Below are positions 2,341-27,370 of a stretch of DNA of 37,089 nt, one piece after another. Both the position numbers and the translations under genes were made by a program. Within the stretch, counting starts at the first letter, position 1; each line of letters starts with the position of its first letter. Below the pieces are notes generated by a model. The model saw only the letters and a list, made by a program, of their open reading frames with translations, was not told the origin of the DNA and ran no database searches. Source of the DNA: a virus; IMG/VR virus record IMGVR_UViG_3300032134_000009, positions 1 to 37,089 of that record; one strand, 5' to 3'.

Positions 2341-3504
2341 TTAAAACGCCTCCTTTTCAGCAGGAGTATCATATCCAGTTAATCCACCATCTGCATTTTC
2401 CTCAGAAATAACTATGCCTGCGTCCAGCTTTTCGTACAAGTCAACGAAGCTCTCTTTCGTATCTTCGGCAAAACGAGCGCAGCAAAGTTCTATGGCTTCA
2501 CGTTTATCCCCGAAGATCGAATAGGCTTTGACTATGCTATCTAAACGCCGGGTACTGATCACGCTATCAACTCCACCGTCGGCGAAGGTTTTCCGAATTA
2601 CATCCGCCCAGGCTACCAAGTTGCTGGCAAACTCCTCATCAACTTTTCCACATTTTTTCATGGAATTGACTACGATCTTCTTCTCAGTCGCAGCAGTTGC
2701 ATAGGGTTGCTCCAGAGTGATTGCAAACCGCTCTAAAAAAGCTTCATTTAGGATATTCGCTCCGATGAACATCCCTGAATCTGACCCCTGGCCTTTTGTA
2801 TTTGCGGTGGCCATGCAATTAAACCCCTTGGCAGGCTTGACCCAGCGATTAACCTTCTTGAGATAAACACCGTTACCTTCAAGGACAGGCTGCAAGGCTA
2901 AAAGTTTGTTGCTTCCCAAGTCTACTTCATCAAGTAACAATGTGCAACCCCGTTCCATCGCTTCGATGACAGGTCCGGGCACAAATTTGGTTTCCCCGTT
3001 GACTAACCGGAAGCCACCCAGCAAATCATCCTCATCAGTTTCGATGGTGATGTTCACCCGAATAAGCTCTTTCTTGAGTTTATGATGGGCTTGCTCTACC
3101 ATAAGGGTTTTGCCATTTCCTGAGAGCCCGGTGATAAAGATGGGATAAAACAAACCAGATTTTATAACCTTCTCAATTTTTGAGTAGTGGCCCCAAGGAA
3201 CAAACCCCTCAAACAGAGCAGGAACTAAATTCTGCTTTTCCATATTAGTTGCAACCAGATTTACAAAAGCGGTTTCAGTATTCTCAACCGCAGCAGGAAC
3301 CGGAACAGCAACAGAACCGCCTTCTGAAGGCAGTTTATAAGAACCGTAATGGGCCTTGAACTCAGGCTTCATAAACCAAGTAGGAAAGGGAACACCAGCC
3401 TTCACAGCGGCTTCCCGAACATTTTGCTTGGAGACAATAGAACCATCACCGAACATTTCGGCAGCGGTATCCACAAACAACTTTTTACGAGGTGAGAGAT
3501 ACAT
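2341..3504 (-). CDS. cobS: CobS/MoxR-like AAA+ ATPase
   Basis: A 387-residue protein from the ATG at 3504; AAAGGA lies 7 bases upstream, while a TTG two codons earlier has no site of its own. Walker A GLSGNGKT is at 126-133, Walker B LLLDEVD at 189-195, sensor region MATANTKGQG follows, and an arginine-finger-like LERFAITLEQPY comes later. This is the MoxR/CobS (cobaltochelatase ATPase) branch of AAA+. Marine T4-like phages often carry it under the name cobS. MoxR-type ATPases work with a VWA-domain partner, and the gene immediately upstream encodes one. A cobalamin role is not shown by the sequence; remodelling of a protein target through the VWA partner is equally possible. Its own early promoter lies at 3537-3565. 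Confidence 0.85.
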   Translation of the reverse strand: MYLSPRKKLFVDTAAEMFGDGSIVSKQNVREAAVKAGVPFPTWFMKPEFKAHYGSYKLPSEGGSVAVPVPAAVENTETAFVNLVATNMEKQNLVPALFEGFVPWGHYSKIEKVIKSGLFYPIFITGLSGNGKTLMVEQAHHKLKKELIRVNITIETDEDDLLGGFRLVNGETKFVPGPVIEAMERGCTLLLDEVDLGSNKLLALQPVLEGNGVYLKKVNRWVKPAKGFNCMATANTKGQGSDSGMFIGANILNEAFLERFAITLEQPYATAATEKKIVVNSMKKCGKVDEEFASNLVAWADVIRKTFADGGVDSVISTRRLDSIVKAYSIFGDKREAIELCCARFAEDTKESFVDLYEKLDAGIVISEENADGGLTGYDTPAEKEAF

Positions 3505-6162: not shown

Positions 6163-6204
6163 TCAAAAAAGTAGATTCTTTGTCGATTTATTGATATTTA
6201 GTCA

Positions 6205-10630: not shown

Positions 10631-11706
10631 AATTCCAAATCCTGAGCTTCATTATAAAGTGCTTTCATAGTATTTTTAAGTCTAGTCTTATCTAGTGTAA
10701 CATCCAAATCATCAACATATTTTTCAAGCAGAGTCATGGTATCTTCTGTATTTTCTACAATGTCATCTGATACATTGTCAGCATCCAACTCTGAGAAGTC
10801 CTCAATAATCTTGACTTCATATGCATCAGCCTGTAGTAGTCGGTCTGTGAATTTATCAAACTCATACAAGTCCTTCTTATTAACCACAATTAGTTTTACA
10901 TACTTGTCTTTATACTTAGACACGTCCTCATTAGTATAATCATTAATTGTATCATCATAGAAAATCTTTTCATGAAGTGTATGTGGATTAACAATACGCT
11001 CTAGTTTGCGTGAATCAGTATCAAAGATATGAAACCCTTTCGAATCATTGTAGTCGCTCCAAGTAATTTCATACGGAGTTCCCAAATAATATATCTGGCC
11101 GTCATCTGATTTATGATGAAAATGCCCACTAAAACATAGGTCAAACCGACTAAACAGCTGTTTATCGTATCCACTGTCAGATTTATAACCCCTGTGCATT
11201 TCAAAACCATTCACTTCTAGATGGCCCATAAGAATCTGTGCTGATGAATGTTTCAACGCATTCATCGACTCATCATAATTATTGGAATTAATCCAAGGCA
11301 TGAATTGAATGGGAGTACCATCAAATTTTACAATCTGCGGCTCTGAATAAATCCATACTTTATCATCAGAAAATGGGTTTTCACCGCCCCTTCCCACAAG
11401 TTCATCCATAGAATTTACTTCATTGGTGTTCCTATAGTAAGTGTCATGATTGCCAATGATAATATGTAAATCAATACTCATCTCCTTAAACTTCTCAATA
11501 AAGCGACTACGGAAATCGTGAGCAATACGATAGCTTATATACTTACGGCGATCAACAACATCTCCCATATGAATACATGTTGCGATACCTCTTTCCTTCA
11601 ATGTAGGAAAGAAAATATTTTCATAAAATTTAAAGAAGTATTCGTTGAAATTTAGATTATCATTTCTTGCACCAAAATGTGTATCAGTAATAATTGCAAT
11701 TTTCAA
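10627..11706 (-). CDS. 47: Recombination endonuclease subunit gp47 (Mre11/SbcD-like)
   Basis: A 359-residue protein with the metallophosphoesterase motifs DTHFG (D8, H10), GDVVDRR (from G48), GNHD (85-88) and GHFHHK, in that order. It is the nuclease partner of gp46 and acts at DNA ends. The C-terminal third is acidic. The start is TTG at 11706, overlapping the stop of gene 55 as TTGA; GGAAG lies about 9 bases upstream and no other start is near, so reinitiation after gp55 is likely. T4 gp47 is about 339 residues. It is followed by the two-gene insert (unknown gene and methyltransferase) and then by gene 46. Confidence 0.95.
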   Translation of the reverse strand: MKIAIITDTHFGARNDNLNFNEYFFKFYENIFFPTLKERGIATCIHMGDVVDRRKYISYRIAHDFRSRFIEKFKEMSIDLHIIIGNHDTYYRNTNEVNSMDELVGRGGENPFSDDKVWIYSEPQIVKFDGTPIQFMPWINSNNYDESMNALKHSSAQILMGHLEVNGFEMHRGYKSDSGYDKQLFSRFDLCFSGHFHHKSDDGQIYYLGTPYEITWSDYNDSKGFHIFDTDSRKLERIVNPHTLHEKIFYDDTINDYTNEDVSKYKDKYVKLIVVNKKDLYEFDKFTDRLLQADAYEVKIIEDFSELDADNVSDDIVENTEDTMTLLEKYVDDLDVTLDKTRLKNTMKALYNEAQDLEL

Positions 11707-12248
11707 ATTTCTTCTTCCATAAATGTTTCAAGGCCTTTTGACTTAGGCGCCACTTTCTTTTTTGGTTTATATACATCTTCATCTGGAAGCATAACATTAG
11801 GATCAAATCCTATTACAGAATATGATGCATCATCACCATCCATTGTTACCCAAGATTGATATTGCGAATTTTCTATCATTTTATTTTTGACATGAGTTTG
11901 CTTTTTCTCTTTTGCAATCCTTCTAAGAAATGCATAATATATAATTTGCGTAAAATATGCAAATGGATTATTTGATTTCTCTGGATTAAAATTTGAAACA
12001 TACTGCAAGCAATTTTCAATGCCATCAGATATCATATCATCTCTGTATGTGTAATTAATAAAATTAGGCCGATAAGAAAGATGTGTTGCTATTTTAAGAA
12101 AACACTCTCCAATATAATTAGATACTGGTGGTTGTTCTTTTTCATTTTCTTCAGCAACTTTACATTTTTCTTTAAACCCAACCATAGCCTTCAGAAATTC
12201 TTTATTGTCAACGTAATGTACGCCCTTTGCCTTTTTTGTTTTAGCCAT
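11703..12248 (-). CDS. 55: Late transcription sigma factor gp55
   Basis: A 181-residue protein, close to T4 gp55 (185). It has the family layout: basic N-terminus, a central sigma region 2-like segment (YRDDMISDGIENCLQYVSNFNPEKSNNPFAYFTQIIYYAFLRRI) and a C-terminal tail ending in LETFMEEEI, the clamp- and coactivator-facing end. It redirects host RNA polymerase to TATAAATA promoters, several of which are present in this window before structural genes. AAGGAG lies 7 bases before the ATG. It is the first gene of an early/middle operon driven from 12280-12308, running through 47, 46 and def. Confidence 0.95.
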   Translation of the reverse strand: MAKTKKAKGVHYVDNKEFLKAMVGFKEKCKVAEENEKEQPPVSNYIGECFLKIATHLSYRPNFINYTYRDDMISDGIENCLQYVSNFNPEKSNNPFAYFTQIIYYAFLRRIAKEKKQTHVKNKMIENSQYQSWVTMDGDDASYSVIGFDPNVMLPDEDVYKPKKKVAPKSKGLETFMEEEI

Positions 12249-12279: not shown

Positions 12280-12308
12280 ATCATACATTATAATAACTAT
12301 AATGTCAA
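12280..12308 (-). promoter_or_regulatory. Sigma70-type promoter of the 55-47-46 operon
   Basis: TTGACA (12308-12303), 17-base spacer, TATGAT (12285-12280) on the minus strand. The predicted +1 is near 12273, giving a leader of about 25 bases with AAGGAG. It stands back to back with the plus-strand promoter at 12323-12350. Confidence 0.75.
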
Positions 12309-12322
12309 GGTACAAAAGGGAA

Positions 12323-12350
12323 TTGACAAATTAAAAAAAATGTGTATAAT
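12323..12350 (+). promoter_or_regulatory. Perfect-hexamer sigma70-type promoter pointing antisense
   Basis: On the plus strand TTGACA (12323-12328) and TATAAT (12345-12350) are 16 bases apart. Both hexamers are exact consensus. The predicted start near 12357 would transcribe plus-strand RNA antisense to the end of the 12366-12767 gene and then uvsW. No plus-strand gene of any plausible kind follows. Confidence 0.6.
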
Positions 12351-12365
12351 AGACTATGTAGTTAG

Positions 12366-12767
12366 TTAATGAATAGTATCATTTTCAGTTTCTAAATCTT
12401 CTAGCAATTCATCATATACATCTTCATCTCTAATATCATCTAAAGTTGATCTTTTTTCTGGAGCATCTAAATGTTTAATTTCTTTTATTACATGCTCATA
12501 ATATCTAGACAAGCCAGGTGATGCATTAGCAACCAACAATACATGATCGCTCTTTATTGAAAATTTAGATTGTTCTGTGTAGGGCCCTATCCATCGACTA
12601 AGATTTAAAGAATCAACAGGGCCTTCTTTTGTCAAAACTGAATGAACTTCCATTTTGAGAGGAAAATTTATTTTATATTCACCATTGTCAATATCATCAC
12701 CCAATTGACAAACGATTTCTTCTCCGTTTGTTAATTTGACAATTTTATATGGTGCAGCTGTGTTCAT
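12366..12767 (-). CDS. Conserved-looking hypothetical protein between uvsW and 55
   Basis: A 133-residue acidic protein. The N-terminal part (YKIVKLTNGEEIVCQLGDD, then KINFPLKMEV, then HVLLVANASPGLSRYY) reads as a run of short beta strands around turns, weakly reminiscent of Sm/SH3-like small barrels. The last third is charged and helical (KEIKHLDAPEKRSTLDDIRDEDVYDELL). I cannot name a family. It overlaps the end of uvsW by 4 bases (ATGA), so it is translated with the helicase. Its 3' end faces the divergent promoter region, and it is the gene that plus-strand RNA from 12323-12350 would cover first. Confidence 0.7.
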   Translation of the reverse strand: MNTAAPYKIVKLTNGEEIVCQLGDDIDNGEYKINFPLKMEVHSVLTKEGPVDSLNLSRWIGPYTEQSKFSIKSDHVLLVANASPGLSRYYEHVIKEIKHLDAPEKRSTLDDIRDEDVYDELLEDLETENDTIH

Positions 12768-14218
12768 TTTAAATTTACCCTACTTATTTCGTATGCAAAT
12801 TGTTGTTCATTATAGATATTTATTCGTTCTGTGAAGTGTGTTAGTGTGAAATTTCTTCTTTGTTTATAAGATACGTCATCAGCTATATCAAAAACTAGAA
12901 TGGAATTTTTATTTTCGCTAATACGCAATCCTCGGCCGATTGATTGCAAAACTCTAATTTTAGATTTGGACGGTGAAGAGAACACAATATTGTTGATATT
13001 CCTAATATTAATGCCAGTAGAAAAGGTGCCATAACTCGCAATGATAATTGAATTTTTTTCATTCTCTACTATACTTCTAATATCTTCTCTTGTTCCTGTA
13101 TCTGTTCCCCCATAAACAAAAAATATTTTACGGTCTTTTATTTCATCTTCTACTTGCTTATATAAAATTTTTCCATGTTTCTCTACGAGCTGAAATAAAC
13201 ATAATGTATTGCCAGGAATATTGCGACACAAATCAACAATGAATTTATTCCTAGTGCTATTCGTAACCAAATATTCAAGCTCTTCAACATAGGTCATTTT
13301 GCTTCTTATATTTGGATGTTTTAATACTATGCATTTAATTTTAAGATTTGCAAGGGTCTTTTTGTCCATCAACTCCTTTGTTGTTGTTACATTTTCAACT
13401 GCACCAAATAGTCCCTCTAGTACAAGCCTATGCGTCTGAGTACCGTCCAGCGTCCCTGTAAGACCGAACCTGTACTTACATTGATGCAACTTAGTCATTA
13501 TACCCGTAAGAGATTTTGCCTTAAACAGATGAGCTTCATCTCCAATCACACAACCAAACTGCTCAAAATATTTCTTCGGCATTTTATAGATAGACTGCCA
13601 CGTTGATATCGCAACGTCTTTAGTTATTTTTCTATCATGGCCCTGATATATTTTTTGGCAGTATGTGCCAGAACTCCAGCCATAATCTTCAAAATCAGTA
13701 TACATCTGTTCAACTAAAGATGTAGTAGGAACCAAGATTAAAGTCTTGAGTCCCATCATATGATAATAACGAACTAGTGCATATATTATTAACGACTTAC
13801 CACTAGCAGTAGGAGAAACGAGTAAAGCACGATTTCTGGCAATCGCATGGTGTACAGCATCGATTTGATAATCACGGATTTTAAGGGATTTTCCTTTGGT
13901 CTTTGGTTTGAGACTTTTGATAAAGCCTCTAACAACCTGACGTACAACATTCCGCTCATCTTCTACTCCTTCATCAATATTATATATTATGTTATTTTTT
14001 TTACAGTAATCTTTTACATACGATAACAGGCCCACATATATTTCACCTGAGGCGGGAGAGAATAAACGTATTTTTCCATCCCAAATTCTGTTGCGGTATG
14101 TGGGCATGAACTTAAATCCTGGCACTTCGAAGGTGAAGAAATCAGATAGCTCAGCACTTTCACTGGTAGATATATCAGTAATTTGTAAATATACTTCATT
14201 TTTTTTAGATATACGCAT
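12764..14218 (-). CDS. uvsW: UvsW-like DNA/RNA helicase
   Basis: A 484-residue superfamily 2 helicase. Walker A SPTASGKS is at 135-142, motif II is GDEAHLF, motif III-like LTGTLDGT follows, and motif VI is QSIGRGLR near the end. The N-terminal 100 residues (FKFMPTYRNRIWDGKIRLFSP) match the DNA-binding head of UvsW. In T4 it unwinds R-loops and branched DNA, switching replication from origins to recombination, and works in the same pathway as UvsY and gp46/47, encoded alongside. It overlaps the upstream oxygenase gene by 14 bases and the following unknown gene by 4. Confidence 0.95.
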   Translation of the reverse strand: MRISKKNEVYLQITDISTSESAELSDFFTFEVPGFKFMPTYRNRIWDGKIRLFSPASGEIYVGLLSYVKDYCKKNNIIYNIDEGVEDERNVVRQVVRGFIKSLKPKTKGKSLKIRDYQIDAVHHAIARNRALLVSPTASGKSLIIYALVRYYHMMGLKTLILVPTTSLVEQMYTDFEDYGWSSGTYCQKIYQGHDRKITKDVAISTWQSIYKMPKKYFEQFGCVIGDEAHLFKAKSLTGIMTKLHQCKYRFGLTGTLDGTQTHRLVLEGLFGAVENVTTTKELMDKKTLANLKIKCIVLKHPNIRSKMTYVEELEYLVTNSTRNKFIVDLCRNIPGNTLCLFQLVEKHGKILYKQVEDEIKDRKIFFVYGGTDTGTREDIRSIVENEKNSIIIASYGTFSTGINIRNINNIVFSSPSKSKIRVLQSIGRGLRISENKNSILVFDIADDVSYKQRRNFTLTHFTERINIYNEQQFAYEISRVNLK

Positions 14219-14816
14219 TTTGAAAAGTGCCGGTGTCGCCGTAGTCGCCTCTTAGAATAATGTTCCAAGATAAACTAATCCTGCCACGCTTGCACTGAGT
14301 TGGTGGAACCCAATGTTGTAACCAAGAAGGAAATATTAGACCAGTACCTTGACTAGCAATAAATGATAACATATTAGAATTATATCTATTAACTTTTTCT
14401 CTTCGTGGAACTAAAATACTGGATTGTGCTCTTGGATCAAAAAAATGGATAGGTGAAGAATCAGCAGAAGATTGTAGATAATAAACTCCTGACAAAAAAT
14501 TATTTGAATGTGTGTGTGGAGGATGTGCATCTCCACTATACATATGATTTGACCACATATTAGTAATTTCTATTTGATCATATTTATATTCAAGATTTCT
14601 AATAATGTCAACATGCAGTACATCAAGTTCATTTACCAAAGGTTTGAATATTTGATATTTATGTAAGTCAGTACTACTTTGTCGAGTTGTTTTGGACATC
14701 GCAAGTGTTTCTTCTTCAACACTATAGATATAATCTATCATTTTGTCATGAGTTATATCTAATTTAAATTCATGTACTAATGTAGGAAAACATACATGAT
14801 TTTTTACATCAGCCAT
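14205..14816 (-). CDS. Putative 2OG-Fe(II) oxygenase (PF13759-like)
   Basis: Encodes 203 residues from the ATG at 14816, which sits inside the end of the upstream gene (13-base overlap) with GGTGGAG before it; an in-frame GTG 15 bases earlier is less likely. Features are MWSNHMYSGDAHPPHTH with H101 and H103, FLSGVYYLQ, FPSWLQHWV with H168, and R179 followed by ISLSWNI. This is the double-stranded beta-helix pattern of phage-type 2OG-Fe(II) oxygenases. The substrate is unknown. It lies directly downstream of a second oxygenase of prolyl-hydroxylase type and upstream of uvsW, so it is co-expressed with recombination genes. Confidence 0.85.
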   Translation of the reverse strand: MADVKNHVCFPTLVHEFKLDITHDKMIDYIYSVEEETLAMSKTTRQSSTDLHKYQIFKPLVNELDVLHVDIIRNLEYKYDQIEITNMWSNHMYSGDAHPPHTHSNNFLSGVYYLQSSADSSPIHFFDPRAQSSILVPRREKVNRYNSNMLSFIASQGTGLIFPSWLQHWVPPTQCKRGRISLSWNIILRGDYGDTGTFQNAYI

Positions 14817-15370
14817 GTTAATGCACTCCACCTCGTTCCTTTGGTTACAGGCTTGACTTCATGAGGATATAAAAAATTAGAAGGAAAAATAATTCCTGAT
14901 CCTTTTTTGGGATTGTAGATTTCCCCTGCAACAACAAACTCTCCACCTTCATAGTCATCACTTAAAAACAATAATGCAGAGACTTGAGGAAATCCATACT
15001 CTTGGCCATGACTGTGATGAATGTTATCGCAATGCTTAGACATAAATCCACCTTCAGAATATTTGTTCAATCTAAAATCTGTATGACGTTGACAGGAAAA
15101 TTCTTTATGATCCGTCGAATATTTTGATATAACTTTTAAAAAAGTAGTTTTAAAACTTTTATAAAATGGCATACTTTGTTCAATCCACACTTCATTCATT
15201 TTAACACGCTCATCACTTGTTTTAGTTTTTCCCACATCATTTGAATAAGTAGATTTTTGCATTTTCCAATCATGGGACATAATTTCATCACAAACATTTT
15301 CTGACATACAATCTTCGTAGTATCCAATATAATCAGTAATTGGTGGAATCCAACATTTAGCACATGACAT
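14804..15370 (-). CDS. Prolyl 4-hydroxylase-like 2OG-Fe(II) oxygenase
   Basis: A 188-residue protein with the P4H-like iron site: H113-x-D115 (KHCDNIH), a second histidine H170 in FLYPHEV, and R180 before WSALTW for 2-oxoglutarate. The strands LNKYSEGGFM, SALLFLSDDYEGGEF and GSGIIFPSN are typical. The N-terminus has several Cys residues (C3, C6, C21, C27). Family members hydroxylate proline or other residues in proteins; phage targets are not known. Its ATG overlaps the uvsY stop by one base (TAATG). It belongs to a different oxygenase subfamily from the gene that follows it. Confidence 0.85.
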   Translation of the reverse strand: MSCAKCWIPPITDYIGYYEDCMSENVCDEIMSHDWKMQKSTYSNDVGKTKTSDERVKMNEVWIEQSMPFYKSFKTTFLKVISKYSTDHKEFSCQRHTDFRLNKYSEGGFMSKHCDNIHHSHGQEYGFPQVSALLFLSDDYEGGEFVVAGEIYNPKKGSGIIFPSNFLYPHEVKPVTKGTRWSALTWLM

Positions 15371-15801
15371 TATATCATCCCCGCTTCAAATTTCTTCCAC
15401 TCAATTGCGTTCTTGATATCCCAACCACGATTGTCAATAGACTTGATAACTCCTTCAAGATATTTTATTACCGTTTCCAGATAACCAATTTTATCTGCTA
15501 GTGCAATGACTTCTTCATCGGAAGTAATGTACATAGCCAGATCATTTTTTAAAACTTTTAGATCAAATGGTTTTGCAACATAAACTTTGGCATCAGATTT
15601 GCCGCCATAGTACTCCCACTTCTCTCTGTACATTCGCTGGTAATCACCATTAGATTTTTGCAACAGTAATTGAAATCTTGACCGTTGATCAAGATACTTT
15701 GTTTTAATTTTTTGATTTTTAAGAGATTCAGAACCAAGCTGTTCTTCGTTCTCTATGATAAGGTCTTTTCTTGCTTCTTCTTTTAACTGGTCTAGATTCA
15801 T
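15370..15801 (-). CDS. uvsY: UvsY recombination mediator
   Basis: A 143-residue protein, near T4 UvsY (137). The C-terminus SIDNRGWDIKNAIEWKKFEAG matches the family end (SRGF-x-IK-x-x-x-x-x-x-x-FEAG), the middle has YREKWEYYGGK where T4 has an ARLDYYSGR stretch, and the N-terminus is LDQLKEEARKDL. UvsY loads the UvsX recombinase onto single-stranded DNA. It heads a run uvsY-oxygenase-oxygenase-uvsW in overlapping order. The only Shine-Dalgarno-like sequence is weak (GAAAG), and the leader of about 105 bases can fold back on itself. A TATAAATA late promoter lies upstream, although UvsY is usually made earlier. Confidence 0.93.
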   Translation of the reverse strand: MNLDQLKEEARKDLIIENEEQLGSESLKNQKIKTKYLDQRSRFQLLLQKSNGDYQRMYREKWEYYGGKSDAKVYVAKPFDLKVLKNDLAMYITSDEEVIALADKIGYLETVIKYLEGVIKSIDNRGWDIKNAIEWKKFEAGMI

Positions 15802-15911: not shown

Positions 15912-15919
15912 TATTTATA
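15912..15919 (-). promoter_or_regulatory. T4-type late promoter before uvsY
   Basis: Exact TATAAATA on the minus strand, inside the last codons of the gene 3-like protein. The predicted start near 15906 gives a leader of about 105 bases to uvsY. Confidence 0.55.
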
Positions 15920-25415: not shown

Positions 25416-25423
25416 TATAAATA
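25416..25423 (+). promoter_or_regulatory. T4-type late promoter of the plus-strand HNH-like gene
   Basis: Exact TATAAATA on the plus strand, five bases (ATTTC) before the ATG at 25429. By T4 late numbering the transcript starts at the A of the ATG. The gene has no ribosome binding site. Same geometry as at 16505-16512. Confidence 0.8.
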
Positions 25424-25428
25424 ATTTC

Positions 25429-25731
25429 ATGGCAAATGCACATTATGAAAAATATAAAGACACTATTAAAAAAGTAGCTCGTAGAAATTATCGTAAAAGA
25501 ATTGTTTTACTAAACGAATTTCTAGCAGACAAGTCTTGTCAACACTGTGGAGAAAGTGAAACTGTATGTCTCAAATTCTATCCACATAACGCAGAAATAC
25601 GAAAGATTACAAAAAGAGTTGGTACTAGCGATGAAAGTCGCAAAGAAATATTTCATCTATTAGACAATTCAATCATACTATGTTCAAATTGTTGGATCAA
25701 AATTGATAATGATTTAATTGAATTTATTTAG
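25429..25731 (+). CDS. HNH-like zinc-ribbon protein (possibly inactive endonuclease)
   Basis: A 100-residue protein and the only convincing plus-strand gene. A basic helical start (YEKYKDTIKKVARRNYRKR) is followed by C37-x2-C40-G, LKFYPHN, and C85-x2-C88. This is the frame of small phage HNH endonuclease-like proteins in which LEFDHR lies after the first Cys pair and NCHRR at the second. Here the DH is replaced by YPH, and the second pair reads CSNCWIK. The zinc-binding cysteines are kept but key HNH catalytic positions look altered, so it may bind DNA without cutting. It sits between genes 17 and 18, ends 4 bases before the convergent gene 17 stop, and has its own late promoter. Free-standing homing genes typically insert this way. 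Confidence 0.75.
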   Translation: MANAHYEKYKDTIKKVARRNYRKRIVLLNEFLADKSCQHCGESETVCLKFYPHNAEIRKITKRVGTSDESRKEIFHLLDNSIILCSNCWIKIDNDLIEFI

Positions 25732-25735
25732 TTTT

Positions 25736-27370
25736 TCACCAATCTGTATTATAATCTCTAACTACAGGCGACCATCTAGTTCCATATTCATCTATCGTAT
25801 CTTCAAATGGATTATCTATACCATTAACAATAAATCCAAATGGTGCCATATCTTGATCTAATGCATCCTGTTGTTCTTTAAGCATGGTTTGTCTAATATC
25901 ATTATCAGTTAATTCTTTAAAATATGTTTGATCTGTTGCCCAACCAAATATAAACAAGCAAGCAACCAAATCATCATTACATCCATCATCAGCTGTGAAA
26001 GATGATCCTTTTACTATAAAAGTAGACAATTCATTTATGCAATCATAATCTTCTATTATTAATTTGTTATCCTCAATCATTTGCTTTAAATTGGAACAAC
26101 CTATTTTTTTAACTGCTTTAGTTGTTCTTACACCCAATTGAGCTCGACCACCAGAAAACCCTGCACCAAGAATTTGACCTGCTCTGCCACGCATAGAAGC
26201 CATAACTAAATTATCATATTCTAAATCAAATTGTAAAGTGTTTGCAACCTGTTCACCAATATCATTTACTTCTACCATAACATATGCTTGATTATAAACT
26301 TTAGCAACATCATATATTTTAGAAGGAAAAATTAATGGTTTAATCTCATTGTCTCTATATTTAGCAACAACTCTATATGGTATTTCAGTTATATCAAAAA
26401 CTAAAAAGGCAGAATAATCATTTTTTGTTCCTCTAGCAACATCAGCAGTTAGCATATAAATGTGGTTTTGCTTAGGTTTTTCATATATGTCTAGACCAGC
26501 ATTTGTTTGCAATGATGTTTTGTATGCCATCTGTCTCAATTTTACAGCAGATATAAGAGTGTCAATTGATCCAAGAAATTCACATTCAAATTCTGAATTA
26601 AACTGTGCTTCTGAAGTATTTTTTATTGTTTCTTCTTTCCATGCATCATCACGGCCAGGAACTTCTCTCCAACTAACTTCTGTTGGAATATATGCATTTC
26701 TTCCATCTTGAGCATCCACCCAAAGCTTATAAAACATATTCATACCATGAGGGGTTGAAACTATAATAACTTTTGTAGTCTGACCAGAAGTGATTGTGGG
26801 ATATACTGATGAAAAAAACTGTTCTGCAATTGTGGAAGGAACATATGCAAACTCATCTAAAAATATTACATTATATGAACCACCACGAACAGCACTGGAA
26901 GATGTAGCAGATGCAACTATTTTTGAACCATTCTCTAATTCAATATTACCTTTATTCCAAGAAAGAATACCTTGCTGCATCCAAACAGGTAAATTTTCAT
27001 ATGCAAGTTGCAACCTTCCTAATATATCTCTTGCAGTTGCAGATTTATTAGCTAGTACAGCAACGCTTACACTAGGATTAAACAAAACAAAATGTAAAAG
27101 ATATGAAATGATGATAGTGGACTTGCCTGATTGTCTGGGTAATTTATGAATGGTAAATCTATTATTATGCATAGAATTTACCATATCTCTTTGAAAATCA
27201 TACATATCAAATGGTACAAGACCGTGATCAAGAGATACTATTCTAACAAAGTTTTCAATAAAATACAAAGGATCATTAGAACATTTATTATATTCTATTA
27301 TATTTTCCTCGCTAAATTCTTGAGGAACATTAACCCTCTTTAGGTTAGGATTTCCTAGATATGATTCCAT
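25736..27370 (-). CDS. 17: Terminase large subunit gp17
   Basis: A 544-residue protein (T4 gp17: 610). Walker A RQSGKST begins at R79, Walker B VIFLDEF is at 168-174, a coupling motif IIVSTPHG follows, and the C-terminal nuclease domain has LTADVARGTKNDYSAF with its catalytic aspartate. It packages DNA through the portal and cuts concatemers. The ATG lies one base after the stop of the upstream oxygenase gene. An HNH-like gene reads toward its 3' end from the other strand with only four bases between stops and no visible terminator. The order 16-oxygenase-17 differs from T4 by the inserted oxygenase gene. Confidence 0.97.
   Translation of the reverse strand: MESYLGNPNLKRVNVPQEFSEENIIEYNKCSNDPLYFIENFVRIVSLDHGLVPFDMYDFQRDMVNSMHNNRFTIHKLPRQSGKSTIIISYLLHFVLFNPSVSVAVLANKSATARDILGRLQLAYENLPVWMQQGILSWNKGNIELENGSKIVASATSSSAVRGGSYNVIFLDEFAYVPSTIAEQFFSSVYPTITSGQTTKVIIVSTPHGMNMFYKLWVDAQDGRNAYIPTEVSWREVPGRDDAWKEETIKNTSEAQFNSEFECEFLGSIDTLISAVKLRQMAYKTSLQTNAGLDIYEKPKQNHIYMLTADVARGTKNDYSAFLVFDITEIPYRVVAKYRDNEIKPLIFPSKIYDVAKVYNQAYVMVEVNDIGEQVANTLQFDLEYDNLVMASMRGRAGQILGAGFSGGRAQLGVRTTKAVKKIGCSNLKQMIEDNKLIIEDYDCINELSTFIVKGSSFTADDGCNDDLVACLFIFGWATDQTYFKELTDNDIRQTMLKEQQDALDQDMAPFGFIVNGIDNPFEDTIDEYGTRWSPVVRDYNTDW

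Follow-up and report, generated by a model that had tools for sequence, protein, structure and literature searches.

A conserved sigma70-type promoter aimed antisense into the uvsW-LSm operon of Kyanoviridae phages

The stretch of DNA analysed here, hereafter the window, covers the 37,089 nucleotides of virus record IMGVR_UViG_3300032134_000009, a genome fragment from an uncultured virus, and the closest named relatives of this virus are Methylophilales phage Melnitz and the Pelagibacter phages HTVC008M and Mosig (Kyanoviridae). Its minus strand carries an operon of the order uvsY - oxygenases - uvsW - X, where uvsY (15370..15801; phrog_231) is the first gene, followed by two 2OG-Fe(II) oxygenase genes (14205..15370; phrog_81 and phrog_61), the uvsW helicase gene (12764..14218; phrog_16, PF21241 UvsW_N) and gene X (12366..12767), which overlaps uvsW by 4 nt. 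At the head of the operon the late-type promoter element TATAAATA is found upstream of uvsY (15912..15919, minus strand), as in gp55-dependent late promoters. Past the 3' end of X, and on the same strand, lies gene 55 for the late sigma factor (11703..12248; phrog_234, 1e-63), whose promoter reads TTGACA-17-TATGAT at 12280..12308 (TTGACA 12308-12303, TATGAT 12285-12280). Between this promoter and X, a sigma70-type promoter is located on the plus strand, with the -35 hexamer TTGACA at 12323..12328 and the -10 hexamer TATAAT at 12345..12350, and from the position of the latter the antisense transcript is predicted to start at about 12357-12358.

Gene X very probably encodes a phage Sm-like (LSm) protein with putative RNA binding, as judged from profiles and a structural model. 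In fact, PF16243 (Sm_like) matches 43 of 70 members of the X family, with 1.3e-43 for the P-RSM4 copy, and the window's own X taken alone stays below the threshold (E 0.17). The family profile matches two structures, the Sm/LSm-like protein of PDB 3by7 (3.4e-15) and TIP60 (9e-17), a designed cage that is itself a fusion protein based on this Sm-like fold. Moreover, the AlphaFold2 model of the window X (pLDDT 82) matches 3by7 (TMt 0.79-0.87) as well as spliceosomal Sm proteins, so that family profile and predicted structure agree on the Sm fold. The database label "methylamine utilization" is misleading for this gene. It can also be seen that X ends (12366-12374) in a conserved KTIH behind an acidic, variable linker, an ending which is typical of phages of the pelagiphage and Methylophilales type, while cyanophage X proteins have no KTIH.

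The initial annotation had regarded TTGACA-16-TATAAT as the best sigma70 match in the window, and our search agrees: the pair at 12323-12350 is the sole 12/12 match with a spacer of 15-18. It had also stated that about 13 kb of minus-strand genes lie downstream, and indeed the plus side beyond 12350 faces only minus-strand genes (X, uvsW, the two oxygenase genes, uvsY, and head and tail genes) until an ORF at 25429-25731. This ORF of 100 aa, the only plus-strand gene of the region, lies between terminase and tail sheath genes and has a late-type TATAAATA of its own at 25416; in Melnitz, a gene on the opposite strand is found at the place corresponding to 25416-25731. The match in the window is by itself only mildly improbable, since dinucleotide shuffles of the window give 0.15 perfect pairs on average and 15 of 100 shuffles contain at least one; its significance comes from its conservation in relatives instead.

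To evaluate this conservation, gp55 relatives were collected from four viral-contig scans together with named phages, giving 333 gp55 loci that were reduced to 220 non-redundant upstream regions. The antisense promoter scores at least 9 in 88% of these regions as against 11% of shuffled regions; the -35 hexamer is TTGACA or TTGACT in 195 of the 220, and the spacing is 16 or 17 in 199. Both hexamers are kept across the family while the spacer sequences drift, as expected for a sigma70 promoter with hexamers 16-18 nt apart and a spacer free to vary, and a T-G is conserved at the predicted start site. When loci rather than upstream regions are counted, the promoter with free spacer sequence is present in 190 of 210 non-redundant loci from cyanophages, pelagiphages and the Methylophilales phage, where the criteria were loosened by eye in places and part of the 20 loci scored as lacking it still show hexamers in degraded form. 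Position and direction in these 190 loci fit, at the sequence level, a cis-antisense locus. Among isolates, it is seen in P-RSM4, S-SSM4, S-T4, P-HM1, Sf-FS3, S-RIM32, HTVC008M and Mosig, and also in Syn9, P-SSM4, S-SKS1, S-CAM1, S-ShM2 and the freshwater phage DSL-LC02, while in S-B68, checked alongside Syn9, P-SSM4 and others, it is absent. In Syn9 (DQ149023) the site falls between gp143, whose end is at 123673, and gp55 at 123769. In the genomes of P-RSM4 and AG-345-L05, it is the sole match to the promoter pattern on the reverse strand.

Loss of both hexamers in close relatives with neighbouring genes kept, which had been put forward as an argument against the promoter, does occur in a few lineages, for example in L004/L059, with gp55 at 87% identity, while about 90% of the loci retain it. 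Clean deletions are found in L004/L059, L046/L064 and L053/L054/L068, and the gp55 tree requires at least three losses, in about three lineages. Might the match then be a chance or relic promoter without function? The frequency of such matches in shuffles of the window alone and the few clean losses would allow this, yet the hexamers are retained family-wide with drifting spacers, so that, unless the alignment is biased, this idea can hardly be credited. On the evidence of sequence conservation, the reading as an antisense promoter is borne out, and the promoter is a real, selected and family-wide element. We know of no earlier description of it in the sources consulted.

The rearranged loci indicate what this promoter is tied to. 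In 190 loci, the -10 hexamer and the stop of X are only 14-69 nt apart (median 28), while in the same loci the interval between the gp55 start and the -35 hexamer ranges over 19-2949 nt. Insertions between gp55 and X amount to four genes and 2.9 kb in L391, 1.7 kb in L392, 1.0 kb in L393 and 0.6 kb in L394, and in L251 and L252 a stretch reading as a tRNA gene stands between the gp55 promoter and the antisense promoter. In every locus with such an insertion the promoter remains beside X, and it is also unmoved where genes have been inserted between uvsW and X. Because it stays by X despite insertions, at a tightly kept distance, the antisense promoter belongs to the 3' end of X and not to the gp55 promoter. 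This bears on the earlier idea of a pairing with the promoter of gene 55. The two are back to back in the window as had been noticed, and they overlap in many cyanophages; nevertheless the pairing is not the conserved feature, and the promoter is kept where genes or a tRNA put 0.2-2.9 kb between the two. We therefore reject a role as half of a divergent pair that aids the gene 55 promoter by supercoiling or mutual exclusion as most improbable.

As for the product, the simplest one predicted is a long antisense RNA across X and uvsW. An intrinsic terminator within 900 nt downstream is lacking in 170 of 178 loci and has a candidate in the other 8, and a short RNA ended by an intrinsic terminator is rejected, as none is conserved. 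A small plus-strand protein is likewise discarded: ORFs within 160 nt have a median of 22 codons, in mixed frames and with few ribosome sites, and no plus-strand ORF downstream of the promoter is conserved among the relatives compared. Searching Rfam near the site returned no family save one sub-threshold match. It is also conceivable that the LSm protein encoded on the other strand handles this product as a regulatory RNA, either in feedback or as an Hfq-like partner RNA. The promoter is linked to the LSm gene even where uvsW and gp55 have moved away, and P-RSM4, S-SSM4 and Melnitz each have a single sense-oriented copy of its start and leader sequence; on the other hand, no 3' end is conserved, the leader sequences vary among phage groups and the RNA binding of this LSm family is putative only, which together make this role quite unlikely.

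Around the predicted start, an inverted repeat GACT-ATGT-AGTT with one G-T pair is found at 12352..12363 of the plus strand. Its TGT centre (12357-12359) is conserved at the expected start, while the arms are diverse among phages, such as AACGG/CCGTT, GACT/AGTC, CCGG/CCGG, CAAC/GTTG and AGAGT/ACTCT. The arms covary, with 3.44 Watson-Crick pairs (maximum 5) as against 2.67 +- 0.06 after an exchange of arms among phages, and this coupling holds also inside three of four phage groups. Read on the plus strand, the arm mismatches comprise 31 G-T versus 5 A-C, a bias that exceeds all 1000 swaps, and that strand-biased mutation (transcription-linked deamination of C in the non-template strand) could also favour. 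Covariation and mismatch bias point to a structure in a single strand of plus polarity, which may be RNA or non-template DNA. Since the first arm precedes the expected start, transcription would have to begin unusually early for the hairpin to form in the RNA; the alternative is a hairpin in the opened non-template strand. A protein operator at the start site is unlikely, as the arm sequences vary yet remain complementary, and a 3' hairpin of X on the sense strand is disfavoured by the G-T/A-C asymmetry and by the position of the repeat, which adjoins the -10 hexamer and not the stop of X.

Promoter and repeat also occur together in sense orientation, one copy each in P-RSM4 (53261-53320), S-SSM4 (26765-26830) and Melnitz (about 73655-73710), each upstream of a small early-type ORF, and the ORFs of P-RSM4 and S-SSM4 look related. 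An unbiased scan with the cyanophage version of the pattern gave 94 contigs: 65 have the match antisense at X, a further 5 close to gp55, 3 upstream of the small gene of P-RSM4 type and 21 at other places, so that the LSm/gp55 junction holds the motif in 70 of the 94. Two of the 21 are Synechococcus genome contigs, one of which (L408, about 3410-3470) may be chromosomal while the other (L420, about 3020-3080) looks phage-related. This distribution marks it as a promoter type whose commonest copy is at the LSm locus. One may go further and imagine a distinct promoter class, common to phages and some marine cyanobacteria, where the discriminator and first transcribed bases form a hairpin of the non-template strand (structure selected, G-T tolerated, A-C not) that would stabilise the open complex or an R-loop, and whose Kyanoviridae copy behind the LSm gene would be an early brake or a source of LSm-bound RNA; we hold this to be a doubtful extrapolation. 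Two further features of these genomes may be recorded: sense early promoters of Melnitz (for example at 6198, 33499, 38992 and 66590) share in their spacer an inverted repeat TGTT-N5-AACA, perhaps an operator, and in S-SSM4 a DnaA-box-like word TTATCCACA is found at about 26590, inside the long intergenic stretch that precedes the sense copy.

The initial annotation also considered a promoter for an R-loop or primer at a replication origin. In favour of it, an early promoter is ascribed to T4 oriE (PMC3016281), and an R-loop could be kept open by a hairpin of the non-template strand at the start site. GC skew is one-signed along HTVC008M, Melnitz, AG-345-L05 and S-SSM4, and the detrended curves of these four genomes have no recurrent extremum at the site. 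Moreover, the promoter tracks the LSm gene through rearrangements and has been lost in viable lineages, and the oriF promoters of T4 are MotA middle promoters, oriE being the only origin said to use an early one (PMC3016281). The idea is thus not supported, nothing having been found in favour of an origin, and it is regarded as very unlikely.

The reading that we favour, with a probability of roughly 45%, is that early antisense transcription would hold down the late LSm/uvsW operon up to the point at which gp55 assumes control. A host-type sigma70 promoter, early in kind, stands behind the last gene of the late uvsY-uvsW-LSm operon and is aimed back into it; from there, the polymerase of the host would, early in infection, produce a long RNA antisense to uvsW and the LSm gene; both genes would be held low, by head-on transcription and by pairing of the RNAs, at a time when early leak-through could reach them; and when gp55 redirects the RNA polymerase to TATAAATA promoters, the antisense output would drop and the sense operon would be expressed. 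Here we infer the firing of the promoter, its early timing and the repression, all three alike. In T4, uvsW has a late promoter, and its product clears R-loops at origins (PMC3016281); this suggests that early UvsW would be harmful. Accordingly, the link with UvsW drawn in the initial annotation may stand by way of timing, where an early antisense RNA would help keep UvsW late, and not by way of R-loops at origins.

The sense side of this scenario varies among phages. In a set of 58 loci, TATAAAT is located within 140 nt upstream of uvsY in 27, with 2 on the opposite strand, while neither TATAAAT nor a sigma70 promoter is common directly upstream of uvsW. A sigma70 promoter precedes uvsY in about 12 of the 58, which means that expression of the sense operon is not exclusively late in every phage. 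Against the repression model count also the about three lineages that exist without the promoter and the fact that the same promoter type drives other genes in sense direction, and the start-site inverted repeat is left unaccounted for by simple antisense repression. An insulator at the operon end, which is compatible with the repression model, fits nearly as well: a polymerase bound to the promoter, or leaving it, would meet the sense polymerases and keep late transcription from running on into gp55, 47 and 46, with no part played by the antisense RNA. The promoter sits exactly at the end of the operon, the usual place of a terminator, 14-69 nt from the X stop whatever lies beyond; yet a plain terminator would suffice, and read-through matters most late in infection, just when little activity is expected of a sigma70 promoter, so that we consider this explanation unlikely, if well worth keeping in mind.

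Antisense repression may also be compared with known systems. The antisense promoter behind X, reading against uvsW, differs in position and direction from T4 ori(uvsY), for whose location see PMC3016281. As in T4, uvsW is under late control and promoters matter for the substrates of UvsW; the T4 origins (oriF, oriG and oriE) use sense middle or early promoters, and the review describes no antisense promoter behind uvsW (PMC3016281). From what PMC2984593 reports of it, CfrI of the T4-like cyanophage S-PM2 is an RNA of about 225 nt that lies antisense to two genes, psbA and one for a homing endonuclease; the RNA predicted here would resemble it as a cis-antisense RNA that runs back across the 3' end of its sense gene. 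CfrI is short, belongs to a photosynthesis locus and has been shown experimentally, whereas the present element lies at the core uvsW-LSm-gp55 locus, is family-wide, has no conserved terminator and is known from sequence alone. Gene X shares its fold family with the phage Sm-like protein of PDB 3BY7 and PF16243, the sources for which describe no regulatory element tied to the Sm-like gene. Finally, as in bacteria with convergent promoters or overlapping transcription of the excludon type, the RNA of this promoter would oppose a neighbouring operon, but in the present case the effect would be to set early phage transcription apart from late.

The Kyanoviridae are among the commonest phages of the sea, yet little is known of how they time their gene expression. 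With its family-wide antisense promoter, the uvsW/LSm/gp55 junction would offer a single testable site for early/late switching in these phages; meanwhile, a regulatory element is now attached to the phage LSm protein, together with a covarying structure around the predicted transcription start.
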